A DNA stretch of 64,000 bases from Desulfosporosinus youngiae DSM 17734 (GTDB lineage Bacteria > Bacillota > Desulfitobacteriia > Desulfitobacteriales > Desulfitobacteriaceae). Positions 1,788-52,479 of this stretch are shown here, piece by piece; the stretch's first letter is position 1, and each line of letters begins with the position of its first letter. Below the pieces are notes generated by a model that saw only the letters and a list, made by a program, of their open reading frames with translations, ran no database searches and was not told the origin of the DNA. Where the stretch lies: contig NZ_CM001441.1 in assembly GCF_000244895.1 (NCBI RefSeq), positions 2,562,226 through 2,626,225 of the forward strand, read 5' to 3'. The position numbers and the translations under genes were made by a program.

Positions 1788-4700
1788 ATGAGCCTTTTTA
1801 AAGACATTCTATCCGGAATCTCCGGTATCTTTTCCGGATCCCCGTATCGGATTATTCTCTCTGCAGAAGACAAGAAATTCTATCTAAATGCGTATAAAGG
1901 AGCCGGAGCGATACCCTTCGCTCAGCTGCTGAATAAATATCCGCAGTTAGGTGATCTAGCTGTATGGGTGAACTATGAGAAAGGACGCATAGTAATTCCT
2001 CTGGGAAACTTAGCCTATGTAAAAAAGGAATTGGCCCGCTTAATTTCGGAGGAGCAAAAAAATAAGCCTCAGATTGTAATACCCCAGGAAATTCAGCAGC
2101 TCAAGCCCGGAAAAATGCCGGCAGGATTTGAAATCCGGTATAGTTGGAACGGCTCGGAAAAAGCTATCCAACCCCAACTGAGGGGAGAATATTGGGGAGA
2201 AGGCACATATGTATCAGAAAACAGCTATTGGAACATGCCAGGCTTTACTGAAAACGATGACCTTTGGCTCAGAAAAAACAAAATCCAGGGCCAAGAAATC
2301 CTTGAATTTCTCCGCGCGATCCTTCCCCAATGGCAAAGGCGCAGTTTCCCGGTACAATCTGAAGTCGTCCTGGAAGCAGAACCTGCCTGCACTATTAAAA
2401 TCAACCGGGTCCTTATAGATTCCGTCACCTGTGAAGCTCTCTGGCGGGTAAATCCCGGGAGCATCGCTGAAATCCCTTCATTGGCAGGCTATATAATTGC
2501 AGGCTCTTCACTTTGCGAGGGATTTAATCCCGCCGGGCTTTCCTTGCAAATTCCGCTTCAGAGCGGGGAGTTTACCCTCAGGGGTGAAGAAATTGCTGTC
2601 TTTCAGCGGGAAATCCTACCTAAAATCAAAAAGTGGATCAAAGGCAACCTGGAGGAATTGTCTGACAGACACCGGGTGACGGAAAACAGAGGAGGGCTTA
2701 TTCTTTCCATCGCCAGAGGAGAAATGAATGGTATAGGCTATGCGGAGGCGATTCCTTATTTTGTGGAGGGAAATGAAAGAATTAAAGCGGAAGATCTCTC
2801 CAGGAAAATTCAACCGGATAAAAAATATATCCGCTTGGAGAGTGGCTGGTGTCCCGTGGAAAGTTTGAAACAGCTTGGGTTAGGGCCCATGGGGCGTTTA
2901 ATTGACGGAACAGCATTAAGCAATTACCTTAGGTTATCCGCCGCGGAAATTCTGCTGAGAGGTTCGGAGCGTTTTGATGGCCCCTGGCAGCGGCTTGAGT
3001 TTCCGGAGCTGAAATTGCCCGCCAATGCTGCACCGGGCAGGATTGCAGCTGAACATCTGAAGTTCCTGATCCAATGGGGGATTCCCGGAGGTTTTACCGG
3101 AGCTTTTGCCGATTATGAGATTACTCTGCTGGAAACTTTGACTGGTCTGTTCCGGGAATCCCCTAAAATCCGGGTGCTGGTGGTGGGAAAAAAGACTCTT
3201 TTCAGCCAAATGACGGAGCAATGGCAAGCCATTCTCTCCGCAAAATATGAAGGAAATAAGAAAGATCCGGAAATAAAAAGCAATGCAGCCGGATTGTATA
3301 TGGCGACTCCCAATGCCTTGGAAAATTACCCGGGGCTGAGCCGGGCTAAATGGGATCTGCTCATGATTCTGGAAGCCGATGCTTTGCTTAAGTCCAGCAC
3401 TTCAAAGCTATATAACAATCTCATCGCTTGTAAAGCGCGCCTGGTCCTCGGCCTGTTTAGCGGTACCGGGTTTTTCAAGCATCAGCAATCCTTGGAGGCC
3501 CTTTCAACTCTGTTTGGCATTCAGGATAGAGATACGGTTTGGAAGTATGGGGTTCGCAATCCTTATGAAGAGAGAGTAGCCTTGCCGCCGGCCTATCGAT
3601 TGCGGCAAAAGCCTGTAAGCGGCGGAAAAACACCAGGGGGACCGGCTGAATTTACCCTTCGGAATGATTCGCCGGGTAAGGCCCAGCCCATTCCCCTCAG
3701 GACTGAACAAAAGGTACAAGTAGCCACTGCTGAGGGCAACTTGGATTTCAGCTTCTCCATTGAAATCAGTACGTCTAATTCCTATACGGGCTATTATAAC
3801 GGAGAAAGTTTTCTCCAAGAAGCAAAGAAGCTCGTCGGACATGTGGAATCTAAAGCCAGGTTCATTCCCTTTATGTCCTATTGGCCGACGTACAGTTCCA
3901 TGAGCGCCGAACAGCAGAAGTGGTATTTTTACTGGCGGGGGCAGGTCAGAAAAGGACTTTATCCCGACACGGATCTTTCTTACATCTTTGTTCATGTCTA
4001 TGAACTGATTAATAATGTGGGAGTCTTAAGGCCTCAGGATGGATACCGGCAGTTGTTTGATCTATGGATCAACTACCGGGAGCGCTATCCGAAGCTGGAT
4101 CATTATTTGGTGGACTGGCTTATGGATTATGCGGTTATGTTTGGGTGCGACAGCGACCCTCTGCAAATCTATGAGCAACTCGACACCCGGAACGCGAATT
4201 CTGTTTACCTGGATACCATCCTGACTCGCTATAACAAGTCCGGAATCTATCGTTTTCCCCTGGAGTTAATTAACCGGCTTTCGGATTATAATCTTTTCCG
4301 CAGTAAATTCTACAATGAAAGCGGTCAAGCCCTTGTGGCGGAATATATCCCGAAAACTATTGAAAAAGTTAATGAGTTTCTGTTACAACAGCACCATTTA
4401 GGAATGCTGGATATGTTTCAACCCAGTCAAAGGGAGAAAATACAGCATGCACCTTTCCGCAGTGCGGTGCACTGCTATGATGCAGGCCGGCAGATTACCC
4501 TGGAGACGATTCCTTACACCAGGCACAAACCTTTACGGGAATTTCTTACCGCCGTGATCAAACACACTGAAAACAAGCTCAGAGAAGCGAAGGGATACAA
4601 CGGAAGGCTGCGGAGCTATGCACTTGAATCTGAAATCAGGATCTGGATCGATGATTTTCTGGCTTCCGAAATAGAAAGTCTGGAACCGGCAACCAAGTCC

Positions 4701-5465
4701 TCTCTTAAAATCGAGCTGGATCCGTCTAAAATAGACCAACTGCTCAAAGACTCCAATAAAGTACGGGATATGCTGATCATCCCTGAAATTGAGGTTCAAG
4801 CCGAAGACAAGGAGGAGCCCCGGCCCGGAAGAGAGAAGACTGTCGCCGGCAATTTAGAGAGGCCTCAGGGAACGCCGGTTCAATTGCTGACGGATTTGGA
4901 GCCTGTTCATCAATTGCTGGAGGAGCTTGATGACCGGCAATTAGGATTGCTCAGAGCCCTGGCAGAAAATCTGTGGGTATTAGAAGATTCAACATTATCC
5001 GGGTTGTTTCCTGATCTGTTGGTCGACTCGGTGGTTGACAATATCAATGAGCTGTCTCTTAACTATCTCGGCGACCTGCTCATTGCCGTTGAAGGCAGCC
5101 AGAAAATTGTTGCCGATGACTTCCGGGATGAACTGGACTATCTTTTACCCCGCCTGGAAGAGGCAAAGCCGCAGAAGCCGGAACATTCCAAGCCGGCGCA
5201 GGATCTTTCTGAGGAGTGGAAACGCTTCCGGATGAATATCTCCGCTTTTCAATACCGGGCTTTGAAGGCCTTCAGCCAGGAAGAGGACTTAATCGCCAGG
5301 ATCGATAAAATTGCCGGGGAGTCCCTGATGATGCCCGAAATTCTGATTGATTCCATCAATGAATTGGCCCTGGATAATCTTGGCGATATAATTATTAATG
5401 TAGAATCGTTTCCACCGGCAATCAATGAGGAATACAGGGATATGATTAAGAAAATTACAGCATAA
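1788..5465 (+). CDS. TerB_N domain protein with degenerate SNF2-like ATPase domain
   Basis: 1225 residues, first gene of a three-gene module (16 bases to the next). Residues about 415-560 (FLIQWGIPGGFTGAFADYE, RVLVVGKKTLFSQMTEQW, LMILEADALLK, LGLFSGTGFF) follow the layout of the SNF2 N-terminal helicase lobe. The Walker A lysine and the DEAD/DEAH acidic pair are missing, so it should not hydrolyse ATP. Residues about 690-830 (FMSYWPTYSSMSAEQQKWYFYWR, YIFVHVYELIN) match TerB_N. The C-terminus holds two related 80-residue repeats (LVDSVVDNINELSLNYLGDLLI and LIDSINELALDNLGDIII), which resemble a TerB_C-like tail. TerB_N proteins of this kind usually sit beside a DUF2791 ATPase and an Lhr-like helicase, as here. 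A scaffold or sensor role is inference. Ribosome site is a weak AAAGGTTGGTG. Confidence 0.75.
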   Translation: MSLFKDILSGISGIFSGSPYRIILSAEDKKFYLNAYKGAGAIPFAQLLNKYPQLGDLAVWVNYEKGRIVIPLGNLAYVKKELARLISEEQKNKPQIVIPQEIQQLKPGKMPAGFEIRYSWNGSEKAIQPQLRGEYWGEGTYVSENSYWNMPGFTENDDLWLRKNKIQGQEILEFLRAILPQWQRRSFPVQSEVVLEAEPACTIKINRVLIDSVTCEALWRVNPGSIAEIPSLAGYIIAGSSLCEGFNPAGLSLQIPLQSGEFTLRGEEIAVFQREILPKIKKWIKGNLEELSDRHRVTENRGGLILSIARGEMNGIGYAEAIPYFVEGNERIKAEDLSRKIQPDKKYIRLESGWCPVESLKQLGLGPMGRLIDGTALSNYLRLSAAEILLRGSERFDGPWQRLEFPELKLPANAAPGRIAAEHLKFLIQWGIPGGFTGAFADYEITLLETLTGLFRESPKIRVLVVGKKTLFSQMTEQWQAILSAKYEGNKKDPEIKSNAAGLYMATPNALENYPGLSRAKWDLLMILEADALLKSSTSKLYNNLIACKARLVLGLFSGTGFFKHQQSLEALSTLFGIQDRDTVWKYGVRNPYEERVALPPAYRLRQKPVSGGKTPGGPAEFTLRNDSPGKAQPIPLRTEQKVQVATAEGNLDFSFSIEISTSNSYTGYYNGESFLQEAKKLVGHVESKARFIPFMSYWPTYSSMSAEQQKWYFYWRGQVRKGLYPDTDLSYIFVHVYELINNVGVLRPQDGYRQLFDLWINYRERYPKLDHYLVDWLMDYAVMFGCDSDPLQIYEQLDTRNANSVYLDTILTRYNKSGIYRFPLELINRLSDYNLFRSKFYNESGQALVAEYIPKTIEKVNEFLLQQHHLGMLDMFQPSQREKIQHAPFRSAVHCYDAGRQITLETIPYTRHKPLREFLTAVIKHTENKLREAKGYNGRLRSYALESEIRIWIDDFLASEIESLEPATKSSLKIELDPSKIDQLLKDSNKVRDMLIIPEIEVQAEDKEEPRPGREKTVAGNLERPQGTPVQLLTDLEPVHQLLEELDDRQLGLLRALAENLWVLEDSTLSGLFPDLLVDSVVDNINELSLNYLGDLLIAVEGSQKIVADDFRDELDYLLPRLEEAKPQKPEHSKPAQDLSEEWKRFRMNISAFQYRALKAFSQEEDLIARIDKIAGESLMMPEILIDSINELALDNLGDIIINVESFPPAINEEYRDMIKKITA

Positions 5466-5481
5466 GATAGGCGGGAATGGA

Positions 5482-6813
5482 ATGAGTCAAATGAAAATAC
5501 CGAAAAGAATCAGCACCGCATTAATCCAGTCACTGTCGGCGGGAGTGGTTCCCAGGATCGGACTGGAGTATATAGCGGTGGGCAGAAAAGAAGAAATCGA
5601 ATCCCTTCTGTCTGACCTGGAAAATGTGGGGGAGGGGGGAGCCTCCTTCCGGTTTATTGTCGGAAGGTATGGCAGCGGCAAGAGTTTTCTCATGCAAACA
5701 CTCCGTAACTATGCCATGGAAAGGAATTATGTCGTTGCCGATGGGGATTTGTCACCGGAGCGCCGTTTCACGGGGACCAAAGGACAGGGGCTGGCTACTT
5801 ACCGGGAATTGATGACTAATTTATCGACTAAGACCAGACCCGACGGCGGCGCTTTGGCCTCAATCCTGGAAAAATGGATTGGGGGAATCCAGATGGAGGT
5901 TATGAAAGATACAGGGCTGCGTCCTCAGGCTAACGGTTTTGGCGAGGCGGTAGAGCTCAAGATCTTTGAGACTGTAAACCAGATGTCTGGCCTGGTCCAT
6001 GGCTTTGACTTCGCCAATGCGGTGACAGCTTATTGGAATGGTTACCGTCAGGTGGATGAGAGTAAAAAAGCAGCTGCTTTGCGCTGGCTGCGGGGGGAAT
6101 TTGCCACTAAGACCGAGGCTAAAGCTTTTCTGAATGTCCAGATGATTATTGATGACGAAAGCTGGTATGACTACATTAAATTGATGGCGTCTTTCGTGGT
6201 CCGGATAGGCTATAAAGGTTTGATTACGTTCCTTGATGAAGGAGTTAACCTCTACAAAATCAGCAATAGTATAGCCAGGCAAAGCAATTACGAAAAGCTA
6301 CTGACTATGTTCAACGATACCATGCAGGGCAAGGCCCAGCATCTGGGCATCCTTTTGGGCGGTACTCCTCAATTTGTGGAGGATCAGCGCAGGGGATTAT
6401 ACAGTTATGAGGCCTTGCGCTCCCGATTGGCGGAGAGCAGGTTCAGTCAGGGAGGGTTGCGGGATCTCTTTGGCCCGATTATCCGCTTACAGACCCTGAC
6501 TCATGAAGAAATATTTGTACTGCTTAAGCGTTTGGTTGAAGTCCATGGACAGCATTATGGCTATGAACCCCGCATCACGGAGCAGGATATGATGGCTTTC
6601 ATGCAGGAAGTGGCAGGACGGATGGGCGCCGACGAACTTTTAACACCAAGAGAGGTGGTCCGGGACTTTATCGGGATATTAAATATCCTGCTGCAGAATC
6701 CCCGGATATCTTGCAGTGAAGTTTTGTATGGGCCTGATTTTAAACTGAGAGCGGCCGATCAAGATCCGGAACAAATAGGCGTAGATGATGAATTTGCGGA
6801 ATTCAGCTTATGA
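5482..6813 (+). CDS. BrxD-like P-loop ATP-binding protein (DUF2791)
   Basis: 443 residues. Walker A GRYGSGKS at about 61-68 and a Walker B-like ITFLDEGVNL with D252-E253. The motifs RFIVGRYGSGKSFLMQTLRN, DGDLSPERRF and ILLGGTPQFVEDQRRGLYSYEALRSRL are characteristic of the BrxC/BrxD group (DUF2791) known from BREX/Pgl phage-defence loci. The length suits BrxD rather than the much longer BrxC/PglY. The stop overlaps the start of the following helicase by four bases (ATGA), which implies translational coupling. BrxD and the BrxHI helicase pair together in type 2 (Pgl) BREX; here they sit with a TerB_N protein instead of PglX/PglW. Role in defence is inference from family and company. Confidence 0.8.
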   Translation: MSQMKIPKRISTALIQSLSAGVVPRIGLEYIAVGRKEEIESLLSDLENVGEGGASFRFIVGRYGSGKSFLMQTLRNYAMERNYVVADGDLSPERRFTGTKGQGLATYRELMTNLSTKTRPDGGALASILEKWIGGIQMEVMKDTGLRPQANGFGEAVELKIFETVNQMSGLVHGFDFANAVTAYWNGYRQVDESKKAAALRWLRGEFATKTEAKAFLNVQMIIDDESWYDYIKLMASFVVRIGYKGLITFLDEGVNLYKISNSIARQSNYEKLLTMFNDTMQGKAQHLGILLGGTPQFVEDQRRGLYSYEALRSRLAESRFSQGGLRDLFGPIIRLQTLTHEEIFVLLKRLVEVHGQHYGYEPRITEQDMMAFMQEVAGRMGADELLTPREVVRDFIGILNILLQNPRISCSEVLYGPDFKLRAADQDPEQIGVDDEFAEFSL

Positions 6814-9077
6814 GCGGCAATCCATTTTACAGGCTGGCCCCTTTTATTCAGGAATACATCTATAATCATCAATGGACAGAACTGCGGGCCGTGCAGGTGG
6901 AAGCCTGCCAGGTTGTCTTTGAGTCGGACGCCCACTTGCTTTTGGCCGCCGGCACTGCCTCGGGAAAAACCGAAGCAGCCTTTTTGCCGGTGATTACCTT
7001 ACTCCATGAAAATCCGCCTTCAAGTATTGGCGCTCTCTATATCGGCCCTTTAAAGGCTTTGATTAACGATCAATTTGTGCGGCTCAGAGATCTGCTGGCA
7101 GAGGCGCATCTTCCGGCCTGGCATTGGCACGGGGATGTATCTCAAAGCCACAAAAACAAGATGTTGAAGAATCCCCGGGGGATCTTGCAGATTACCCCGG
7201 AATCCCTGGAGAGTATGCTCATCAACCGCAGTACGGATAGTTTGCGGCTCTTTGCCGATCTCCGCTTTATTGTTATTGATGAGGTCCATGCCTTTATGGG
7301 GACGGACAGGGGCGGCCAGATTCTCTGTCAGCTGGAGCGGCTGACGCGGATGATCGGTCATCAGCCCAGAAGAATCGGTCTTTCCGCAACCTTGGGTGAT
7401 TATGCCAAAGCTGAAAAGTGGCTGTCATCCGGGACGGAGAGGGCGGTAATCACTCCCATAGTTCAAGGGGGGCAGCAGAAAATTCGTCTGGCTGTGGAAC
7501 ACTTTTATCAGGATGACGAGGTTGAGGAAGAAAAGGAAGCCGCAAATCTGTACGGGCCGGAAGGGCAGCGGGAACACCGACCGGAACAACAATCCGATAA
7601 AGTTTCCAAGCAAGGGATTCCACCCTTTGACCAATATATTTTTGAGCAGAGCAAAAATAAGAAGTGTTTGATTTTTACCAATAACCGGGAGCAGGCAGAG
7701 TACACGGTGGCCACCTTGCGTCAGCTGGCTGAAAGTAAAAGGATGCCGGATGTCTACCATGTTCACCATGGCAGCATCTCGGCTCCTTTGCGAGAAGCGG
7801 CAGAAAAGGCAATGAAGGAATCGCCGGAACCTTGTGTTACGGCTGCCACCATTACTTTAGAATTAGGGATTGATCTGGGATATCTGGAACGAATTATTCA
7901 GTTGGAGACCCCTTTTTCCGTTTCCAGCTTCGTCCAGCGCTTAGGACGTTCAGGCCGCAGAGGTACTCCTTCGGAAATGTGGTTTGTTTGTAAGGAAGAT
8001 CAAGGGGCAAATGACCTGCTCCCTAACCGGATTCCCTGGTCACTGCTTCAAGCCATTGCTATTATTCAGCTGTATTTGGAAGAACGCTGGATTGAGCCGG
8101 TCAGTTCTAAGGATTATCCTTTTAGTCTTCTTTATCATCAAACCATGAGTACCCTGGCTGCTATGGGAGAATTGATACCGTCAGCACTGGCCCAAAGGGT
8201 GTTAACCTTGAGCCCTTTTAAGAACATTTCCAGTGAGGATTTCAGGCAGCTCTTACTTTACTTGATTGAAATTGATCATATTGAGCAAACGGAAGAACGG
8301 GGACTGCTGGTGGGTTTAACCGGGGAGCAAGTAGTGCGTAATTTTCGCTTCTATTCGGTATTTCCGGACAATGAAGAATTTGCAGTACGCGATGAATCCA
8401 AGGAAGTCGGCAGTATTCTGTCGCCGCCGCCTCAAGGGGAGCGTTTTGCTCTAGCCGGCCGGACCTGGGAGGTCACGGAGATTGATCTGAAACGCAAGAC
8501 CGTTTATGCCAAACAGGTCAAGGGCAAGGTCCGTACTGCCTGGAACGGCGGGGGAGGCTCTATTCATTCCAAGATCCTGCAGCGCATGAAGCGGGTCTTG
8601 GAGGAAGATATTACTTATGCATACCTTCAGCCCGGTGCGGTTAAGCGGTTATCTGAAGTGCGGGATTTAGCCCGGGAGACCGGGGTCTTGAAAACCAATA
8701 TTCTCCCCTTAGGAGGTAATAGCTACTGCCTGTTCCCTTGGCTGGGAACAGTCGCTTGTCGGACTCTGGAAAGGTGCCTGCGTTATGGGGGAGCAGAGAT
8801 GTTTGAAATAAGGAATGTGGGTGGCCTTTCACCCTATTTTATTACCTTCAGTACGAAGAGCGGGTCTGAGATTGACCTTAATTCCTTGCTTAAGAGGGTT
8901 ATAGCCGGCGCTTCTGACACAGAGCAGCTTATGCAAGAAGACGAAGCACCACAATTGGAGAAGTACGATGAGTTTATTCCTCCGCCTTTACTGAGGAAAG
9001 CATTCAGACATGATTATCTGGATTTGCAGGAAGTAAAATTTGCGTTGGACTTTGAAAAAACCGGTCAGATCGTTTAA
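6810..9077 (+). CDS. BrxHI/Lhr-like superfamily II DNA helicase
   Basis: 755 residues. Motif I AGTASGKTE at 47-55, motif II DEVH at 157-160, motif III SATL at 192-195 and motif VI QRLGRSGRRG at 376-385 define an Lhr/YprA-type SF2 helicase. All catalytic motifs are intact, unlike the SNF2-like domain two genes upstream. The length fits the shorter BrxHI proteins; the DUF1998 zinc region of YprA is not evident. It overlaps the BrxD-like gene by four bases. Expected to translocate on DNA with ATP hydrolysis as the motor of the module. The specific activity and target are not visible in the sequence. Confidence 0.85.
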   Translation: MSGNPFYRLAPFIQEYIYNHQWTELRAVQVEACQVVFESDAHLLLAAGTASGKTEAAFLPVITLLHENPPSSIGALYIGPLKALINDQFVRLRDLLAEAHLPAWHWHGDVSQSHKNKMLKNPRGILQITPESLESMLINRSTDSLRLFADLRFIVIDEVHAFMGTDRGGQILCQLERLTRMIGHQPRRIGLSATLGDYAKAEKWLSSGTERAVITPIVQGGQQKIRLAVEHFYQDDEVEEEKEAANLYGPEGQREHRPEQQSDKVSKQGIPPFDQYIFEQSKNKKCLIFTNNREQAEYTVATLRQLAESKRMPDVYHVHHGSISAPLREAAEKAMKESPEPCVTAATITLELGIDLGYLERIIQLETPFSVSSFVQRLGRSGRRGTPSEMWFVCKEDQGANDLLPNRIPWSLLQAIAIIQLYLEERWIEPVSSKDYPFSLLYHQTMSTLAAMGELIPSALAQRVLTLSPFKNISSEDFRQLLLYLIEIDHIEQTEERGLLVGLTGEQVVRNFRFYSVFPDNEEFAVRDESKEVGSILSPPPQGERFALAGRTWEVTEIDLKRKTVYAKQVKGKVRTAWNGGGGSIHSKILQRMKRVLEEDITYAYLQPGAVKRLSEVRDLARETGVLKTNILPLGGNSYCLFPWLGTVACRTLERCLRYGGAEMFEIRNVGGLSPYFITFSTKSGSEIDLNSLLKRVIAGASDTEQLMQEDEAPQLEKYDEFIPPPLLRKAFRHDYLDLQEVKFALDFEKTGQIV

Positions 9078-9140: not shown

Positions 9141-11900
9141 ATGAATCCTAATCAATACTTAATCTGGTTAAATGGCGAAGATAAGACAGAAGAGGTTGAA
9201 ACGTATAATAATGCAGGTTATATGGTGCATGTAATCTTCAATAATAATTCCCGTCAGTATTCTTATCATCGCAGCAACACCTTTATCCGTGAAAATCCGA
9301 CGACGATTAATATGGAAGATAAAGCAGCCTATTGGGGGGACATGCCGCTGTATGATGTTGAATATATCTTGGATTTTGGACCGATGGTAAGAGTTAGATT
9401 CAGGCAGAAGAGCAAAAGTCAGGTGTTCAACAAGACGGAATTAAGTATAAAAAGCAACGGCATCAATGAAATGGGAAAAGACATCCTGGAATATTGGAAA
9501 GAAATTGCGCACTTCAGTCCCATAGAAGATGAAGCTGAATCTTTTCTGGAAAAGGTGTTCGATAAACTTACATTTGTCAGTCCGGAAAGTGTTCTCGGCA
9601 GTTATATCAATAAAAGACCTCTGCAAAAATCAGCCCCCGATCTCCAGAACCTTATCTTTCCGTTCCGTTTTAATCTGAATCAAAAGAAGGCCCTGGAGAA
9701 CGCGCTGTCATGTAATGTTTCGGTTATTGAAGGGCCTCCGGGAACGGGTAAAACCCAATCCATTTTGAATATCCTGGTTAATTTAATTACCCGGAACAAA
9801 ACGGTTGCCGTCGTATCCGATAATAATGCGGCAGTTAAAAATGTGAAAGACAAGCTGGAGAAAGACGGCTATGGATTTCTGGTAGCTGCCTTGGGAAGCA
9901 ATGAGAACAAAGGAGAGTTTTTCAGCTGTTTGCCCCAAGGCAATGTGCAGGACTGGGAGCGGGGAGTTCAGAAAGAGGAACTGACAGCAAAGATCACCAA
10001 TCTAAATACTAAAATCAACCGTCTTCTTGAAGTTAATGTTGAAAAGGCACGAATTCAGCAGCAACTTGCCTCTTTCCTGACAGAACAGGAGCATTTTGAG
10101 ACCTATTACGAGAAACAAGACATTCCGGAGATTCAAAAGCTTTCTTTTTATCGGACCAGCCCTGAAAAAATTATTGCCTTCTTAGCCGATAGTTATCTGG
10201 CTAACCAAAGAGGAACGGTGGATCGTTTTCTTTATAAGATCAAGCTGTTGTTTTCTTACGGTTTTAAAGATTTTAAATCTCTTCTGAAAAATGACATGGA
10301 CCTGGTCATCAATCTGCAGCGGAAATTTTATCAATTAAAGATAGAAGCTTTGACAGAGCAAAAAGCAAAATTGGCCAAAGAATTGGCGGACGATTCATTC
10401 GATCAATTATTGAAAGAGCATCAGCAGGCTTCCGAATTGCTGTTCAGGGAAGCGTTGGTTAAAAAATACCGTAAGCAAAAGCTTCCCCAGTTTACAATCA
10501 AAAATTATAAACCGATGTTTGCTGAATTCATCCAGCACTTTCCTATTGTTCTGAGCACAACTTACTCATTGCGCAATTCGCTTCCGGATAATTACCTTTT
10601 GGACTATGTCATCATCGATGAATCCTCTCAGGTGAATTTATTGACGGGCGTATTGGCTCTTTCCTGCTGCAAAAATGCCATTATTGTCGGGGATATCAAG
10701 CAGCTGCCGCAGATCGTTGATGAGAAGAAAATAGGTAAACTGTCTAAACAGGTTGCTGATCCTGTTTTTAATTATTTTAAACATAATATTTTGTCTTCAA
10801 TCCTTGCCCTGTATGGGGAGAAGGGTATTCCTCAGGTCATGCTGAAAGAGCACTATCGCTGCCACCCCAAAATTATTGAATTTTGCAATCAGAAATACTA
10901 TGAAGGCGGCTTGGTTCCTTTCACTCAAGAGGATATGGAGGCTAATCCTTTAATTCTCTATCGTACCCCAGAGGGCAATCATATGCGCAATAATACTACA
11001 GGTGTGAAACCGGGAAAATACAATCAGAGAGAAATAGATGTAGTAGTCGGGGAGGTATTGCAGAATCCCAGTATAGCCCAGGATAGTGAGGAAATCGGCT
11101 TTACGACACCTTATGTCAAGCAGGTAAGCGCAGCCGCCGGACTGCTTCCGAAAGAAATCCAGTGTGACACTATTCATAAATATCAGGGGCGGGAAAAGAA
11201 GATCATGATTATGTCAACCGTCTTGGATGACACCCGGGACGGAAAAAGCGGTCTCCGCTTTGTGGATGATCCCTGTAAAATCAATGTTGCCGTATCCAGA
11301 GCAATCAAGCAGTTTGTCCTGGTGACAGATCACTCTTTATTCCAGCGACGGGGAAAAGAAATCGGCGATTTGATCCGCTACATGGAGTACAATACGTTGG
11401 ACCAGAATATTATTGAAAGCCAAATTGTCTCCGTATTTGATCTCTTGTACAAAGAATATTCAGCGAAACTGCATTCTTTCAGCCAAAGGCTGAGTCGACG
11501 TTCAAAATACAAATCTCAGAACATTATCTATACGCTTTTAGACGACATTCTTAAGGAAAAGCAGTATGATAATTTGAGCTTTACTACGGAGGTCATGGTG
11601 AAAAATCTCCTCAAGAGTCTGGAAAAGCTTACCCTACAGGAACAACGTTATGTTAACAATAGAGCATCCGTTGACGTCGTCATCTTCCATAAGCAGGATA
11701 AGCAGCCTGTTCTGATTATCGAGGTGGATGGGTTTGCTTTTCATGAAAATAACCCCTCACAGCTAGAGAAGGATGCCATGAAGGATGAGATTTTGCGGAA
11801 ATATGAGTTTTGCTTTTTAAGGCTGCCCACTAATGGCAGCGGGGAGGAAGGTAAGATTAGAAGTCAGCTGGATATTGCTCTGAAGGCAGTGCGAAACTAA
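9141..11900 (+). CDS. SF1 (DNA2/NAM7-type) helicase with C-terminal Vsr/DUF2726-like nuclease
   Basis: 919 residues. Walker A GPPGTGKT at 198-205, motif II DESS at 493-496, VGDIKQLPQ, EHYRCHPKIIEFCN and DTIHKYQGREKK are the Upf1/DNA2-like SF1 motifs. A long helical insertion lies between motifs I and II (about 270-450). The C-terminal ~100 residues (SVDVVIFH, IIEVDGFAFHENN, E861, D863, H868, CFLRLPT) match the DUF2726/Vsr-like PD-(D/E)XK nuclease fold, so the protein probably unwinds and cuts DNA or RNA. Ribosome site AAAAAGGA upstream of ATG 9141. It is 63 bases behind the helicase module and may be its last gene. AT-richer codon use than the TerB/BrxD/BrxHI genes hints at a separate origin. 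Confidence 0.8.
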   Translation: MNPNQYLIWLNGEDKTEEVETYNNAGYMVHVIFNNNSRQYSYHRSNTFIRENPTTINMEDKAAYWGDMPLYDVEYILDFGPMVRVRFRQKSKSQVFNKTELSIKSNGINEMGKDILEYWKEIAHFSPIEDEAESFLEKVFDKLTFVSPESVLGSYINKRPLQKSAPDLQNLIFPFRFNLNQKKALENALSCNVSVIEGPPGTGKTQSILNILVNLITRNKTVAVVSDNNAAVKNVKDKLEKDGYGFLVAALGSNENKGEFFSCLPQGNVQDWERGVQKEELTAKITNLNTKINRLLEVNVEKARIQQQLASFLTEQEHFETYYEKQDIPEIQKLSFYRTSPEKIIAFLADSYLANQRGTVDRFLYKIKLLFSYGFKDFKSLLKNDMDLVINLQRKFYQLKIEALTEQKAKLAKELADDSFDQLLKEHQQASELLFREALVKKYRKQKLPQFTIKNYKPMFAEFIQHFPIVLSTTYSLRNSLPDNYLLDYVIIDESSQVNLLTGVLALSCCKNAIIVGDIKQLPQIVDEKKIGKLSKQVADPVFNYFKHNILSSILALYGEKGIPQVMLKEHYRCHPKIIEFCNQKYYEGGLVPFTQEDMEANPLILYRTPEGNHMRNNTTGVKPGKYNQREIDVVVGEVLQNPSIAQDSEEIGFTTPYVKQVSAAAGLLPKEIQCDTIHKYQGREKKIMIMSTVLDDTRDGKSGLRFVDDPCKINVAVSRAIKQFVLVTDHSLFQRRGKEIGDLIRYMEYNTLDQNIIESQIVSVFDLLYKEYSAKLHSFSQRLSRRSKYKSQNIIYTLLDDILKEKQYDNLSFTTEVMVKNLLKSLEKLTLQEQRYVNNRASVDVVIFHKQDKQPVLIIEVDGFAFHENNPSQLEKDAMKDEILRKYEFCFLRLPTNGSGEEGKIRSQLDIALKAVRN

Positions 11901-15129: not shown

Positions 15130-15545
15130 CGGGAGGCGCTATTTTCCGCTTCTCATTCTTGGTGTGGTGGCGAATTATAGAATTAGAACTCTGTCGAACA
15201 TTTTGTGCGCTGCACTTTCTGTTGTGCTCCCCAAAAAGGCAATTAATAAAGAGCCTGGAATATTCTAAAAGTGAATAGTTTGGGCAGGGATTAGCAAAAG
15301 GATGAAGAATATTAGAATAGCAAAGAATTATCTAGAAATATTATAAAGTTTCAAAAAATAAAATGTAATTCATGACAATGTTTAGGTTAAGCTATTTATA
15401 GAACAATGCCCAAGTCCGCTTGGAGTCGTGATGAAGGGTTAAGATGGTATAGGCATTATTGATTATATTTCTGATTTTACAATATATGAGAATGCTTGGA
15501 AGTGTTCTGAAGAACTAATTCTTAATTAGAGAGGAGTTGATTAGT
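15130..15545. other. Non-coding stretch with possible gene debris
   Basis: 416 bases with no intact gene. A short open piece at 15446-15530 (GIGIIDYISDFTIYENAWKC) ends in a stop but has no start, and looks like the tail of a lost gene. AT-rich sequence just before the AAA gene probably holds its promoter; no clear -35/-10 pair was found. Confidence 0.4.
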
Positions 15546-16727
15546 TTGAAGATTACGGAACTGCGACTGAAAAATTTCAAAGTCTTTAAAGATATTAAAA
15601 TCACAAATTTGCCGGATATGGCTGTCTTCTTGGGTGCCAATGGGACGGGAAAATCCACGCTCTTTGATGTCTTCGGTTTTTTGCACGATGCTTTGACCGA
15701 TAACGTCAAAGCAGCCCTTCTTAAAAGAGGAGGTTATAAGGAGGTTATCTCGCGTAATGCAAAGGGACCGATCGAGATCGAAATTAAGTTCCGACCAGAA
15801 CCGGACGAACCCTTAGTTACTTACGAACTCAACGTAGGTCTTAATGACAGGGGTTTACCCATTGTGACTCGTGAACGTTTAAAATACAGACGAGGTCAAA
15901 AAGGTAAACCTTGGCACTTCCTTGATTTTTCCAATGGGTCTGGAACTGCCATTGTCAATGAGAGTGAGTACGGCAGTGCCGGGGCGAAAGAGAAACGAGA
16001 AGAACAGAGGCTGGATTCTCCTGATATCTTAGCGATTAAAGGTTTAGGTCAGTTTAAAAAATTTAAGCAAGTTGCGGCTTTTAGACGCCTTATTGAAGGC
16101 TGGCATGTTTCCGATTTTCATGTTCAAGCGGCTCGATCAAGTCAAGACGCCGGCTATGCAGAGCATCTATCCCCAACGGGTGAAAACTTGCCGTTGGTTG
16201 CGCAATTTATGCATGAACATTATCCGGAAAAGTTTCAAGACGTCTTAAGAAAGATGGAACAAAGAGTTCCGGGAGTAACTTCGGTTGAGGCGGCTGAAAC
16301 TCAAGATGGGCGAATTATTTTAAGGTTTCAGGATGGAGCCTTTCGAGATCCGTTTATAGCACGGTATGTTTCAGATGGTTCTTTAAAAATGTTTGCCTAC
16401 TTACTTCTTTTAAGTGATCCGAACCCTCATCCGTTGCTTTGTATCGAAGAACCGGAAAATCAACTATATCCCGATTTGTTATATGAGTTAGCGGAAGAAT
16501 TCCGGAGCTATATGGAGGCAGGTGGGCAAGTCTTCATCTCAACGCATTCTCCTGATTTCGTGAACGGGGTTAAACTAGAGGAACTGTTCTGGCTGGTCAA
16601 AGTGGATGGGTTTAGCCAAATTAGGCGAGCCTCGGAGGATGAACTCCTGCGCAATCTGGTGGCCGCAGGGGATTTGCCCGGTTATCTTTGGAAACAAGGG
16701 CTTTTTAAAGGGGCCAGCCCTCTATGA
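15546..16727 (+). CDS. AAA (AAA_21/OLD-type) ATPase of a split ATPase-TOPRIM pair
   Basis: 393 residues from TTG 15546. GAGGAG at 15531-15536 is nine bases upstream of that TTG but abuts the alternative TTG 15537, so the downstream start is favoured. ITELRLKNFKVFKDI and GANGTGKST (about 30-38) are the N-terminal P-loop of SMC/RecF/OLD-like ATPases. SDGSLKMFAYLLLL is signature-like, LLCIEEPENQLYPDL is Walker B, and FISTHSPDFV is the switch region. The stop overlaps the DUF4276 start by four bases (ATGA). ATPase plus TOPRIM-like nuclease in two genes recalls OLD and PARIS (AriA/AriB) defence, although PARIS uses DUF4435. Defence function is inferred. Confidence 0.85.
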   Translation: MKITELRLKNFKVFKDIKITNLPDMAVFLGANGTGKSTLFDVFGFLHDALTDNVKAALLKRGGYKEVISRNAKGPIEIEIKFRPEPDEPLVTYELNVGLNDRGLPIVTRERLKYRRGQKGKPWHFLDFSNGSGTAIVNESEYGSAGAKEKREEQRLDSPDILAIKGLGQFKKFKQVAAFRRLIEGWHVSDFHVQAARSSQDAGYAEHLSPTGENLPLVAQFMHEHYPEKFQDVLRKMEQRVPGVTSVEAAETQDGRIILRFQDGAFRDPFIARYVSDGSLKMFAYLLLLSDPNPHPLLCIEEPENQLYPDLLYELAEEFRSYMEAGGQVFISTHSPDFVNGVKLEELFWLVKVDGFSQIRRASEDELLRNLVAAGDLPGYLWKQGLFKGASPL

Positions 16728-17278
16728 AGGAAATCGTGTTTTTAGTTGAAGAACCCTCCATGAAAGAATTGCTCAAAGCGATCTTACCTAAAGTGATACC
16801 TGATAATGTTTCCTATACGATTATTCATCATGAGGGTAAGCAGGACTTAGAAAAATCGATTCCCAAGAAACTTTGTGCCTTTAGGCAACCTGAGACACGT
16901 TTTGTGGTTTTGATCGATCAAGATAGTAACGATTGCATAGTATTGAAAAAGCGTTTGTTAGAACTCTGCCAAGTAGGCGGAAGGGAAAATTGTCTCGTGA
17001 GAATTGTATGTCATGAGCTTGAATCCTGGTTCCTGGGTGATTTAGCGGCTGTGGGAAAAGCCTACAATCAGACAAGCCTTGCCCGTCGGCAAAGAGAAGC
17101 AAAGTATCGGCAACCTGATCGGTTAAGCAATCCTGCTCAGGTCTTAAAGTTACTAGTGCCGGAATACCAGAAGATAAGCGGTGCACGGGCTGTAAGTAAT
17201 TATATGAAGCTTAGTGAAAACGAATCTCATAGTTTTGCAGTCTTCTTAAAAGGGTTGCAAAAAGTCATTGGAGATTAG
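16724..17278 (+). CDS. DUF4276 TOPRIM-like protein, partner of the AAA ATPase
   Basis: 184 residues, about the usual length. FLVEEPSMKELLKAI near the start gives the conserved acidic residue of TOPRIM-type folds, VVLIDQDSND (about 61-70) the D-x-D-like pair, and CHELESWFLGD (about 99-109) the family signature of DUF4276. TOPRIM folds in OLD-type systems cleave DNA or RNA in a metal-dependent way, so this is probably the effector nuclease, with the upstream ATPase as sensor. Translationally coupled to that gene. Catalytic residues look intact. Confidence 0.8.
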   Translation: MKEIVFLVEEPSMKELLKAILPKVIPDNVSYTIIHHEGKQDLEKSIPKKLCAFRQPETRFVVLIDQDSNDCIVLKKRLLELCQVGGRENCLVRIVCHELESWFLGDLAAVGKAYNQTSLARRQREAKYRQPDRLSNPAQVLKLLVPEYQKISGARAVSNYMKLSENESHSFAVFLKGLQKVIGD

Positions 17279-17303
17279 ACAGATAACGGGGAGAAGGAGT
17301 GCG

Positions 17304-17444
17304 TTGAAAAATTGGCGTGGTGAAATACTTAATCACTTCAGTGAGCCGACACCAGCTCTGAAGATCGTTTCAGACCCGGACGAGCTGCTTTGTAATGAAA
17401 ACATTTATCGGGATGCCTTGGCTAAGGCATCCCTTTGTTTATGA
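17304..17444 (+). pseudogene. 5' fragment of a PglZ-like gene
   Basis: TTG at 17304, preceded by GGGGAGAAGGAG, opens 46 codons: KNWRGEILNHFSEP, then LKIVSDPDELLCNENI, then a stop. In my recollection PglZ proteins of BREX/Pgl loci start with a tryptophan-containing helix followed by a (V/A)xDPDGLL motif, which this resembles closely. The usual length is 650-900 residues, so only the first ~5% remains, and the frame runs into a perfect 10-bp hairpin terminator. The ribosome site is intact, so a 46-residue peptide might still be made. Assignment rests on one short motif. Confidence 0.5.
17410..17433 (+). terminator. Strong Rho-independent terminator
   Basis: GGGATGCCTT and AAGGCATCCC form a perfect 10-bp stem with loop GGCT, followed by TTTGTTT. 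It ends transcription from the AAA/DUF4276 operon and lies inside the PglZ-like fragment. Confidence 0.85.
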
Positions 17445-17554
17445 TGTTCATAGACAAAGAGAAAACCAGTGATGAGAATCAATGGCTTAAAGAATAATAT
17501 TTTGCAGATGTGGTTACCGTCAATGATATATTTCGTGTAAATATGCGAAATAAA

Positions 17555-19966
17555 TTACTTCAAGAGTCGTACCACGCCTTGCCCACCATCGACAAGTACA
17601 CGATCGCCGGTCCGCAAACACATGGTCGCGTTGCCACAACCTACAACTGCCGGAATACCCAACTCGCGAGCAATGATAGCTGCATGCGACAGCGGTGCTC
17701 CCACATCAGTGATGATTGCTCCCGCCCTAGGAAAGAGTGGTGTCCAAGCGATGTCTGTTTGAGAGGTAAGCAGTATTTCACCTTTCTGAAGTTGTTCACA
17801 TTCCTCCAGAGTATGTATGCGGCGAACCAATCCCTCATATCGACCGGCAGACCCGGAGGAGCCTGTAATTATATGACTCTTCGATTGACTGGAATTATTC
17901 TCAGAACAGGATGTAGAGCCATTAGCATCATATATGCCATTTTGCCGCATGGGATCTAACGCCCACCGGAACGGATCAAAACGGCCACATATGATCGAAG
18001 GATAGGCAGGTAAAGATAGGTACCTTTTGTGGATATCCTTCCTGGCAGGGATATATTCTATTGCTGCCTCTTCTCCAGACAGAACATTCAACACCTCATC
18101 GATTGTCAGATAGAAAATGTCATCTCCAAGGCCTGTTAAATGCCCGGCTTGAAGAGCAAACATACGGGCAACCCAACGATCACGCGCATATTCGGAACGA
18201 ACTGCCTCGCGTATGCGAGCCTTTGGAGCAACTTTGTTTAAACGACGTTTTATAGATCGCACCTTCTGGGGATGGCTTGTTGCAAAACGATTCCAGGCAG
18301 CGGCAAAAGAGGTGCGCTGTTTTATGAGCAGAGCTTCTATATCTATGGGCGAACTCTCATATTGTGCCAGCTGCTGGTCAAGCCAGCCCGGGTCTTCAGC
18401 CGGACGAGGAACAGATAGTTCAAACTCATTTGGCCCACGGTGGCCAAAGTAAGCTATGTATTCTTTGCGGGTGATTTCCTTGCAGGCCAATTTTGATATG
18501 CCAAGAAGAGGTCCAAGACTTGCTAATAGTTTCGAATTGTCTCTTACGTCCGAACTGCTGCTCAGTCCGGATATAAACAGATCTGCATTTTCCGGTCCAA
18601 TTAGCTCGGTTAACTCACGTCGTAGTTTAATGGTATAGCCTGAAAACTGAGTAACACTAGCCATTACATACCAAACAGTGTTCTGCAGGTGAGGTAAAAT
18701 TTCTCTTTGCCACAAGGAATTAAGTTCGGCTTTGGTATTTGTTTTTTGGATCTGTTTTTGCATATTCTCGCACCAAACCGGATTCGAACTAAGGAATTTG
18801 GGTAATAATCGGGTTGTCTGAATTTGTTTAAGTATTAACTTTCCAAAACTAATAAGAAAGGAAACCGTAGATCGTTTAGACAGTGATATTATGGGAATGT
18901 CCATACTCTCCGGGATTCGTGTGTATAATAAACCTTCCAAAAATTGAATTATCCCTTGTTTGTTTTTTCCTAAAGCACTTAATACCGAAGCATAAATACT
19001 TAAATTAAGATAGATACGCCCACCAATATTGCCTGATGATTGATATCCGGGCAGCAACTTCCACGACTCGAATATTTGATGTTGAACAGTCCAAGTGATA
19101 GGTGTCATCACTTGGGGGATAGCTTCGCCGAAATTTACGTTAGACCATAGGTAATTGCCAGTCAAGCTATCGTTACACTCACCGGTGATAGGATTATATC
19201 CGATCAAGGTGGTTACTGGCCGGGACTGCAGCAAATATAATGTGTTGCTAGTGATCGCCCATTCGATATCCTGAGGACAGCCCATTTCCATCTCCAGACG
19301 ATTTGCCAGTTTGTAGAGCTTAGGAGCGAATTTTTTAAGTTTCGGCGATCCATCATAGCTAAAGCTATGCCAAATTCCTGTTTTTCGACGCAGCTTGAAA
19401 GTATTCGCTGTGATATGACCAGACACTAATTTTTCACCCAACCCGAAGATAAAGTTGCCGGCCATTTCATTTCGGTTATTAGTAACCGGGTCTACCGTAA
19501 ACAAAACGCCTGAAATATCTGACTTCACCATTTGTTGGATTACTATAGGCATGTCGTGAGACACAGTAAGGCCTTTCGAGCGACTGTAAACCTGCACATC
19601 CTCACTATGCCGTGATTGGCGCACAGTTTGAATCGCCTTTCTGATTTCATCGTCAGTACCAACATTAAGCACAGTTTTAAATTGGCCGGCAAAAGATGCA
19701 GTGGAAGAATCCTCAGATAGCGCAGATGAACGGACAGCGAAAGCGTTTTCATCAACTGTCTGACGCAGTTGTCTAAGGTACATTTGGATTTGGTTCCAGG
19801 CTTCAGGTATTAACTCGTCCTTTTCGAAGGCGGCCGGCATAATAATAAAACCATTGGGCACCGGATAACCGTGTTGATAAAGGTAAGCGAGTGTTCCTCC
19901 TTTACCGCCTGCCAAATGCTGATCTTCAGTTTTCAATTCCTTAAATAAACAAACTAATTGTTTCAT
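17555..19966 (-). CDS. PEP-synthase/rifampicin-phosphotransferase-like enzyme
   Basis: 803 residues. The N-terminal ATP-grasp part (GGKGGTLAYL, FAVRSSALSEDSSTASFAGQF, DIEWAITSNTLYLLQSRPVT) occupies about 1-255. A poorly conserved middle domain follows, then the swivelling phosphohistidine domain (DVGAPLSHAAIIARELGIP, His near 761, GDRVLVDGG). This three-part layout (ATP, substrate, His domain) and length fit rifampicin phosphotransferase and its unnamed relatives. True PEP synthase would carry a C-terminal PEP-binding TIM barrel, which is absent. It transfers phosphate through the histidine to a substrate set by the middle domain; I cannot tell whether that is a rifamycin. A TetR-family gene lies 55 bases upstream on the same strand, so expression is probably ligand-controlled. 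Confidence 0.8.
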   Translation of the reverse strand: MKQLVCLFKELKTEDQHLAGGKGGTLAYLYQHGYPVPNGFIIMPAAFEKDELIPEAWNQIQMYLRQLRQTVDENAFAVRSSALSEDSSTASFAGQFKTVLNVGTDDEIRKAIQTVRQSRHSEDVQVYSRSKGLTVSHDMPIVIQQMVKSDISGVLFTVDPVTNNRNEMAGNFIFGLGEKLVSGHITANTFKLRRKTGIWHSFSYDGSPKLKKFAPKLYKLANRLEMEMGCPQDIEWAITSNTLYLLQSRPVTTLIGYNPITGECNDSLTGNYLWSNVNFGEAIPQVMTPITWTVQHQIFESWKLLPGYQSSGNIGGRIYLNLSIYASVLSALGKNKQGIIQFLEGLLYTRIPESMDIPIISLSKRSTVSFLISFGKLILKQIQTTRLLPKFLSSNPVWCENMQKQIQKTNTKAELNSLWQREILPHLQNTVWYVMASVTQFSGYTIKLRRELTELIGPENADLFISGLSSSSDVRDNSKLLASLGPLLGISKLACKEITRKEYIAYFGHRGPNEFELSVPRPAEDPGWLDQQLAQYESSPIDIEALLIKQRTSFAAAWNRFATSHPQKVRSIKRRLNKVAPKARIREAVRSEYARDRWVARMFALQAGHLTGLGDDIFYLTIDEVLNVLSGEEAAIEYIPARKDIHKRYLSLPAYPSIICGRFDPFRWALDPMRQNGIYDANGSTSCSENNSSQSKSHIITGSSGSAGRYEGLVRRIHTLEECEQLQKGEILLTSQTDIAWTPLFPRAGAIITDVGAPLSHAAIIARELGIPAVVGCGNATMCLRTGDRVLVDGGQGVVRLLK

Positions 19967-20021: not shown

Positions 20022-20636
20022 CTAATCTTTTTCGTGCCCTGTTAGACTGTTGATCAGTACTTGTAGCGCCCAATTCATTGCTTCAGTCGTTTCTTCGGAG
20101 TTAAGTTCGTACCTTTGCTTAAGAGTTGTCCAGGTTAGAGAACTGCAAAGATGAGAAATTATTGCAGCGGTCTCTTTGACGGCTCCTGCGGACAAGTGTG
20201 GGGCATTTTCTATAACCAACGCTTGTATTTTTTGATCGCGCTGATTCCTGCTTTTTGGCTTAACATTGTTAACCAGCAAAGCTATCGTGAAAGCCTGAAC
20301 GAGATTTGCCTTCTCCTCGAATATCTTTAAAGTATTTCCTGCCATGGCAGGAATGTCATCTAACGATTGAGGTATAAAAGGTGCGCTTTGTGCGATAATA
20401 GTTGAGGCTGCTTCATAAAGAGCCTCCAGGAAAGATTCTCGTGTCGGAAAGTGGCGGTAAACCGTACCATAAGAGATACCGGCACGGATAGCTACATCTT
20501 TTACAGTAAAATCAAGGATGCGCCCTTCACTGATAATTTCCGCTAGAGTATCTAAGATACGATCACGCGTATTTTCCTTTTGATTACTACGCAGGGGACT
20601 AGTGTAAGAACGACGATCGGATTTTTCTTTAGACAT
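20022..20636 (-). CDS. TetR/AcrR-family transcriptional regulator
   Basis: 204 residues. The N-terminal helix-turn-helix (RDRILDTLAEII, FTVKDVAIRAGISYGTVYRHFPTRESFLEALY, about 25-75) is typical of TetR. The C-terminal ligand-binding region is helical and not assignable. Ribosome site GGAGAGG before the ATG. It leads the operon with the PEP-synthase-like gene and likely represses it and itself. No clear palindromic operator was identified in the AT-rich 60 bases upstream. Confidence 0.85.
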   Translation of the reverse strand: MSKEKSDRRSYTSPLRSNQKENTRDRILDTLAEIISEGRILDFTVKDVAIRAGISYGTVYRHFPTRESFLEALYEAASTIIAQSAPFIPQSLDDIPAMAGNTLKIFEEKANLVQAFTIALLVNNVKPKSRNQRDQKIQALVIENAPHLSAGAVKETAAIISHLCSSLTWTTLKQRYELNSEETTEAMNWALQVLINSLTGHEKD

Positions 20637-21301: not shown

Positions 21302-21908
21302 ATGACGGGTACCGGCACGGACATTATCAGCGGACGCACCACCCAGGTCATCGCGGCTGAAATTAACATGATCAAATATCAGACTGAGAGAATCTGCCTG
21401 GCCGCCGCCGTGGAGATCGGAAGGCGGCTGACGGAGGCCAAGGCCTTGCTCGAACATGGAGAATGGGGCAAGTGGCTGGAAGAGTCGGTGGACTTTTCCC
21501 AGAGCCGGGCCAATAAACTGATGCGTATCTTTACAGAATACGGAGCCGGACAGTTTTTCTCCTCAAATTCGGATTCGAATCCGAATTTGAACTACAGCCA
21601 GGCAGTGCTTCTTTTAGGTATCCCAAAGGAGGAACGGGCGCAATTCATCCTTGATATGGATATCGAGGGAATGACCAAACAGGAAGGCCTCCGGAAGAGT
21701 GGCGGAGCAAAGCAGTATTATCACCGGGCTGACTGGGGAGCTTGCCGATCTGAAGGTCCAATTGGAGAGAGTCAGAGCCAGCCAGATCGCCTTCCTCTGT
21801 GAAAACCCGGATAAAACTCTTAAGCAAGTCAAGCATGAGCTGCTCCAAATCGCCCCCAATGACAAAGAGACGATATCACTTATAAGAATAAAGTGTACGA
21901 TCTTTTGA
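21302..21908 (+). pseudogene. DUF3102-family gene, frameshifted
   Basis: ATG 21302 has AAGGAG 10 bases upstream. The N-terminal part (EINMIKYQTERICLAAAVEIGRRL, EAKALLEHGEWGKWLEESV, RANKLMRIFTEYG) is the DUF3102 domain, found on plasmid/phage-like accessory genes in Clostridia. Near 21690-21701 the coiled-coil continuation (ITGLTGELADLKVQLERVRASQ) moves to another frame, while the original frame drifts into an unrelated tail and stops at 21802. I therefore call a frameshift. A shorter functional product cannot be excluded. A 26-bp perfect palindrome lies inside the gene at 21564-21589. Confidence 0.6.
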
Positions 21909-51226: not shown

Positions 51227-51480
51227 TTTCAATAAAAGCAGCATCTGATATCAACAACGAGCTAAAATTCAATTTTCACTGCCGGTTTTAGCATAGGAAA
51301 TTGATAAACATCAAGCCGATGGATTTCGCCTAGGGCAGGACCATAAACTGATGCGTATTTTCATGGGTACGGAGCCGGACAGCTTGTCTCCTCAAATTCG
51401 GATTCGAATCCGAATTTGAACTACGGATATCCTTGATAAGAATACACCTGGAATAGTCTGGGATAAGTTTTATGCTTTTG
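51227..51480. pseudogene. Spacer with a second DUF3102 gene fragment
   Basis: Bases 51342-51425 match 21511-21595 of the DUF3102 gene (AAACTGATGCGTAT, ACGGAGCCGGACAG, and the shared 26-bp palindrome at 51393-51418), but the flanking protein sequence is lost. The rest of the spacer shows no gene. Confidence 0.65.
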
Positions 51481-51742: not shown

Positions 51743-51900
51743 TATTTATATTATATCCATAGATTGTAAAATATGCAACCGGTTCACTTTAACCCTTTGC
51801 AAAACGATATTCTCAGATTTAACTTCAGTCTCGGTGCAGAGGATATGGTACAATAGTTCAAAAGAGTATATAAGCGCTGATGGAAGGTGTGTGACTAAAA

Positions 51901-52137
51901 ATGGAAGACAGAGTACTATACACTATAAACCATATTTTACAAAGGAAGAAGAGAAAAATAACCCTGGAGAGCCGTTTGCGGGAAGACCTATTTGTAGATT
52001 CGGTAGATATGGCGATGATTATCGGAGATCTGGAGGATGAATTTGAGATAACCATTACTGATAACGAGTTTGCGGATGTGGTGACCGTCAATGATATTGT
52101 AGAGAAACTGAAAGCCAGAGGTTTATCCGAATACTGA
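51901..52137 (+). CDS. Acyl carrier protein
   Basis: 78 residues, GGAAGGTGTG ribosome site. LREDLFVDSVDMAMIIGDLEDEFEITITDNEFADVVTVNDIVEKL is an ACP with the phosphopantetheine serine in DSVDM (about residue 34). It lies away from fatty acid or polyketide genes, so it is an orphan or second ACP. The partner enzyme is not visible. Confidence 0.88.
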   Translation: MEDRVLYTINHILQRKKRKITLESRLREDLFVDSVDMAMIIGDLEDEFEITITDNEFADVVTVNDIVEKLKARGLSEY

Positions 52138-52479
52138 TTAATTATTATTTGAGTGATATAACCTGTCGTTCCCTGCTTCTGAATTTGAAGCGCAATTCAT
52201 CTGGTTCCTCCTCCGCTGTTTGGGCATGATCAAAGGAGGTTAAGGTGGCAATTGGGTTGGTCGGGATAATAGATGGGATACCTGCGCACAGACATTTACA
52301 GCCATTATCTGAAATGTATGTGCGCTTTGTTATTTTGCATCTCCCCTTTCGACAGAGTATGAAGCGGGAGATTATTAGGGAAGACTCTGGGTAACCTTAA
52401 AAGAACTATAGAAATCTGAGGTGGATGGGGATGGAATAGCAGGAAAATAGAAGAAAAGTGGAGAATTCTGTAGGATGAA
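52138..52479. other. Spacer with a possible 49-codon ORF
   Basis: GTG 52245 preceded by AAAGGAGGT opens 49 codons to 52394 (VAIGLVGIIDGIPAHRHLQP, MYVRFVILHLPF, REIIREDSG). The ribosome site is excellent, but I recognise no family and the peptide may be a relic. Nothing else is visible apart from the ribosome sites of the next gene. Confidence 0.3.

Follow-up and report, generated by a model that had tools for sequence, protein, structure and literature searches.

Background

The passages of PMC12839542 on the BREX types assign BrxD and BrxHI to type-2 BREX, and type-3 BREX works with partners other than these two. The passages of PMC10250203 that describe Shango present it as a three-gene system, made up of a TerB-like protein, an ATPase and a helicase, without PglZ.

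Here we report on a short frame in a 64,000 nt stretch of the Desulfosporosinus youngiae DSM 17734 genome (5.66 Mb, a single contig); this whole stretch is referred to as the window. Very likely it represents what is left of the 5' end of a decayed pglZ, one of the type-3 BREX subfamily that ancestrally stood behind a HEC-01 pair; today it is an ordinary gene relic and not a component of a functioning BREX system. With type-3 BREX PglZ (NF033449 BREX_PglZ_3; PDLC02558) it shares about 35 N-terminal residues, the DPD-LL motif and the start position, but it is without the other ~600 residues, the phosphatase core included, and PADLOC recognised no BREX partner genes beside it.

Results and discussion

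The 46-codon frame and its similarity to PglZ

The frame, a type-3-like pglZ 5' remnant by its match to the PADLOC model PDLC02558 and its identity to a copy in genome G044 (same family, other genus), lies on the plus strand at 17304-17444 and consists of a TTG start, 46 codons and a TGA. It is preceded by a ribosome-site-like AAGGAG with a 4-nt spacer (17294-17303, plus strand) in a layout that is the same in G044, so the intact ribosome site named in the preliminary description is confirmed. A TTG at 17268 is an alternative upstream start for the open frame.

The same description had read the frame as the first ~40 residues of PglZ followed by a stop, and had proposed a profile search. That search agrees with the reading: the frame matches positions 2-36 of the 666 of PDLC02558, the N-terminus only, with E 2.6e-5. 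Pfam gave nothing at E <= 1, and NCBIfam BREX_PglZ_3 gave E 0.14, ranking below an unrelated family at 0.076. These weak Pfam and NCBIfam scores are what could speak for a chance resemblance without PglZ ancestry, a reading refuted by the G044 homologue, which when read across its frameshift matches PDLC02558 at positions 2-68 of 666 (E 1e-16) and aligns with 21 PglZ N-termini; we consider it practically negligible. Judged from the sequences, the PglZ similarity of the frame is beyond chance, and it is the relative that settles the matter.

As the frame stops after 46 codons, the catalytic phosphatase/nuclease core is absent and no PglZ activity can remain. When the whole genome was searched with PDLC02558 the remnant was the sole match (E 0.0038), and neither PF08665 nor PDLC02558 revealed a second PglZ in this genome; the PF08665 core, not found here, was detected by the same search in two of 14 control genomes.

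Relation to type-3 BREX PglZ

By these and the following comparisons the remnant belongs to the PglZ subfamily of type-3 BREX, whose members it resembles most. The G044 read-through matched in 26 of 398 genomes of the phylum, the window's own included. Its six best places showed 43-49% identity; five of these lie in frames of 660-726 codons, the sixth in a frame truncated to 171, and the closest three complete genes (in G126, G159 and G199) showed 46-49% identity over 76 residues. Across the 21 aligned N-termini of complete PglZ genes WR is present in all and DPD in 20. With NCBIfam BREX_PglZ_3, which has a cut-off of 250 bits, the protein of G020 (same genus) scored 899 bits and that of G126, the best match, 707 bits. 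Matches on plasmids came from three records, all annotated as BREX-3 PglZ; on viral contigs 16 stretches fitted a pattern and none was confirmed. A search centred on the class of G126 comprised one genome.

Four pglZ neighbourhoods were fetched. In two of them (L142 and L143) the gene order by size is one that we take to be BREX-3-like, and the other two (L144 and L145) show just part of such an order. NCBIfam named no partner among the three proteins given for L142, and none of the four neighbourhoods held a match to the HEC-01 pair. L145 (G159:C3) also contains, at its positions 8311-8820, a truncated pglZ of 169 codons, in a genome that has a complete pglZ as well.

A homologous copy in a second genus

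A peptide search of 82 genomes of the class gave a match at E <= 1 in 16, counting the window's own. G044 stood out with E 6.9e-13, followed by G020 with 7.7e-4, and the remaining 13 matching genomes were at 0.08 or worse. The window peptide is 68% identical to that of G044 over residues 1-37, and the two loci have in common the DUF4276 tail, the spacer, the ribosome site, the TTG and the PglZ N-terminus. The G044 copy carries a frameshift near codon 33, and its frame ends differently from that of the window; the two G044 frames match PDLC02558 separately (E 2.1e-10 and 0.0014).

Outside the window the arrangement of HEC-01 and a PglZ start was seen in G044 only among the 82 class genomes, so that a pglZ behind HEC-01 occurs in two genera. 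The comparison with relatives suggested in the preliminary description thereby yielded a longer, broken homologue at the same place, but no full gene there. As the genomes searched yielded no complete pglZ directly behind HEC-01, we infer that a full-length ancestral gene once stood here.

The HEC-01 pair upstream of the remnant

Directly upstream of the remnant, 25 nt from its start, ends an intact HEC-01 pair on the plus strand, HEC-01 being PADLOC's name. The pair is formed by a complete AAA ATPase (15537-16727; HEC-01B, E 1.9e-184) and a complete DUF4276 protein (16724-17278; HEC-01A, E 1.1e-70; Pfam DUF4276, E 1.4e-16), the A and B labels being swapped between the PADLOC models of the family. 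Hma-embedded candidates in general are reportedly the subject of one paper.

We searched 71 other HEC-01-type loci by tblastn and detected no PglZ, in contrast to the locus here; as the three queries were all type-3 PglZ, other PglZ subfamilies could escape this search. All 71 loci have a DUF4276 relative and 70 have the AAA partner, some share a contig, and the downstream sequence reached at least 2 kb in 61 and less than 200 nt in two. They include a sister locus (L086) in which Shango genes are found together with a HEC-01 whose DUF4276 gene is cut; no PglZ was detected at this locus either.

Internal loss and junction to mobile repeats

Alignment to G044 places an internal-deletion junction at 17401-17402 (plus strand), where the window lacks 82 nt that G044 retains. 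The two ends of the retained stretch are TGAAAA and TGAAAC, and the window frame remains in phase up to a hairpin. Shortly after the hairpin the frame runs into part of a mobile element (17438-17502, plus strand), identified by repeat comparison, of which ~65 bp of the left part are present and the first 4 bases and the right end are absent; the stop codon TGA (17442-17444) lies inside it. The preliminary description had the gene cut by a terminator. The break is not so simple: part of the frame has been deleted internally, and the remainder runs into a mobile repeat.

The element is 99-102 bp long with 16-bp inverted ends in four of the five loci examined (perfect in two, with one mismatch in two), the fifth being a variant and the window copy partial, and it was matched in 6 of 28 other genomes of the genus. 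Short, bounded by terminal inverted repeats and present in several copies, it is MITE-like. The inverted ends of this ~100-bp element read GAGATTTATGATGTTC, and copies were observed at window 17438-17502 and at L004, L006, L007 and L009. A 29-nt piece of another repeat comes next, at 17501-17529. The piece matches a ~280-bp repeat at window 51859-52138, and that repeat was matched in 16 of the 28 other genus genomes.

The hairpin within the frame

The hairpin spans 24 nt (17410-17433, plus strand) with 10-bp arms and a loop of 4, lies in frame, and is identical to G044 in 23 of 24 nt. Its fragment folds at -18.2 kcal/mol, a value that none of 200 shuffles equalled, and it also folds strongly in G044; between the two copies it is better conserved than its surroundings. 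The 64 kb contain six perfect inverted repeats whose arms measure 10 or more and whose loop does not exceed 8, this one among them. A terminator-like rule found 7 sites in 3 kb against 2.7 expected, the longest stem being that of the hairpin. To call it a perfect terminator is too strong: the hairpin is real and obeys such a rule, but the T tract that follows in the window is interrupted (TTTGTTT), and the G044 hairpin, which has TAAGTTTG behind it, is without a T run. As the hairpin lies in frame and is common to G044, it did not cut the gene on its own.

The hairpin may be either native pglZ coding sequence or a terminator that arose later. It aligns without gaps with the closest three complete pglZ genes, but an equally good score was reached by 103 of 1000 shuffled tails, and two complete pglZ genes folded at its place gave -2.6 and -10.6 kcal/mol. 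We also considered the hairpin as a dispersed repeat and rejected this; with up to 2 mismatches it occurred in one of 29 genus genomes, and a search for its 20-nt core that allowed 1 mismatch matched two of 82 class genomes and led to this remnant in each of them.

Selection on the N-terminus

Comparison of codons 1-33 between the window and G044 shows 12 codons with a silent and 8 with a replacement difference (NG86 dN 0.11, dS 1.44, with dS near saturation and based on 33 codons). If all changes are equally likely, the excess of silent ones (12 of 20) has p 0.00013; at a 35% silent share it has p 0.02. For comparison, the DUF4276 tail differs from G044 by 7 silent and 7 replacement codons out of 33 (dN 0.11, dS 0.54). 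The N-terminus has probably been under selection for much of the separate history of the two copies, as far as so few codons can tell, and this fits a working gene that was broken late.

The silent excess could also be taken as a sign that the short peptide exists as a product in its own right, made behind HEC-01, ending at the hairpin and kept by selection, an alternative that the preliminary description had raised. The ribosome site and TTG kept in both copies and the near-identical hairpin would agree with this, as would the finding that at most one of the 8 hairpin codons differs (p ~0.008 at the rate seen for codons 1-33, in a test picked post hoc). However, the G044 frame shifts and ends elsewhere, the last residues and the stop in the window derive from the missing stretch and the mobile repeat, and the 82 class genomes gave no further strong match of such a form. 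Since the different breaks in the two copies argue against an independent small product, we regard it as very unlikely and prefer the decayed pglZ.

Shango upstream and the question of a BREX locus

The plus-strand genes 8-15 kb upstream of the remnant form a Shango locus (1788-9077) with SngA, SngB and SngC adjacent (PADLOC E 3.5e-122, 1.7e-197 and 1.5e-253), and its proteins include a BrxD-like and a BrxHI-like one. SngA (1788-5465) has 1225 aa, of which residues 663-1118 are the best SngA stretch, leaving ~660 N-terminal residues outside the match. The genes earlier read as BrxD and BrxHI are SngB, with 655 bits against 162 as BrxD, and SngC, with 842 bits against 432 as BrxHI (PADLOC). With scores so far above those for BrxD and BrxHI, the upstream genes do not count as evidence for such a locus of the BREX kind. 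Nor is the remnant part of Shango, which is without PglZ where PMC10250203 describes it.

Between 12166 and 15129 lies a TOTE-type primase with helicase and PLD-like domains, adjoining a 919-aa helicase with DUF2726 at 9141-11900.

The preliminary description had taken BrxD and BrxHI to suggest a once-larger BREX/Pgl-like locus, of which the frame would be a remnant. The PglZ fragment is genuine, and homology does link SngB to BrxD and SngC to BrxHI, but the two genes score far higher as Shango and adjoin SngA, the PglZ is of the type-3 subfamily, whose partners differ, and at the sister locus Shango and HEC-01 occur with PglZ undetected. Out of the BREX core trio of PglZ, BrxC and a methylase the PglZ piece alone was found, by two models. 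Two neighbours of the G020 pglZ, which we tentatively take to be BrxC-like and methylase-like from position and size (with a weak BrxC match by NCBIfam), had no match in the genome of the window in a search without an outside positive control. A larger BREX locus is thus highly improbable, and the remnant is not part of one built with the upstream BrxD/BrxHI-like genes. A likely mis-annotation is hereby corrected: since these BrxD-like and BrxHI-like genes belong to Shango, their presence near a PglZ fragment does not turn this place into a BREX locus.

Proposed decay of the gene and its possible ancestry

The homology, the common position, the missing stretch and the repeat junction are directly observed, and for the decayed pglZ we propose the following course of events. 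The ancestor of the window strain and G044 would have carried, immediately after the HEC-01 pair, a pglZ with a ribosome site of its own; this gene was presumably full length and functional, and may have been co-transcribed with HEC-01. In the window lineage ~27 codons would then have gone from inside the surviving N-terminus, possibly by slippage between short repeats, and PglZ beyond about codon 64-75 would have been replaced by mobile-repeat relics. If the frame is translated today, it would yield no more than a short peptide of no known function, incidental to HEC-01 transcription. The locus is an example of a defence-island gene decaying beside intact systems via a short internal loss and mobile repeats.

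Further, we speculate that the ancestor of the two genera had a working unit of HEC-01 AAA ATPase, DUF4276 protein and type-3-like PglZ, with PglZ as the effector and a conserved RNA hairpin inside the pglZ frame, both known copies being broken; this is rather unlikely. If pglZ did work with HEC-01, a known effector would have gained a new partner, as suggested by two broken copies.

Just past the remnant, on the minus strand, follows a PPDK_N / PEP-utilizers protein of 803 aa (17555-19966), with a TetR-type regulator beside it (20022-20636). Elsewhere in the window a perfect 28-nt palindrome occurs twice with the same sequence, at 21563-21590 and 51392-51419.
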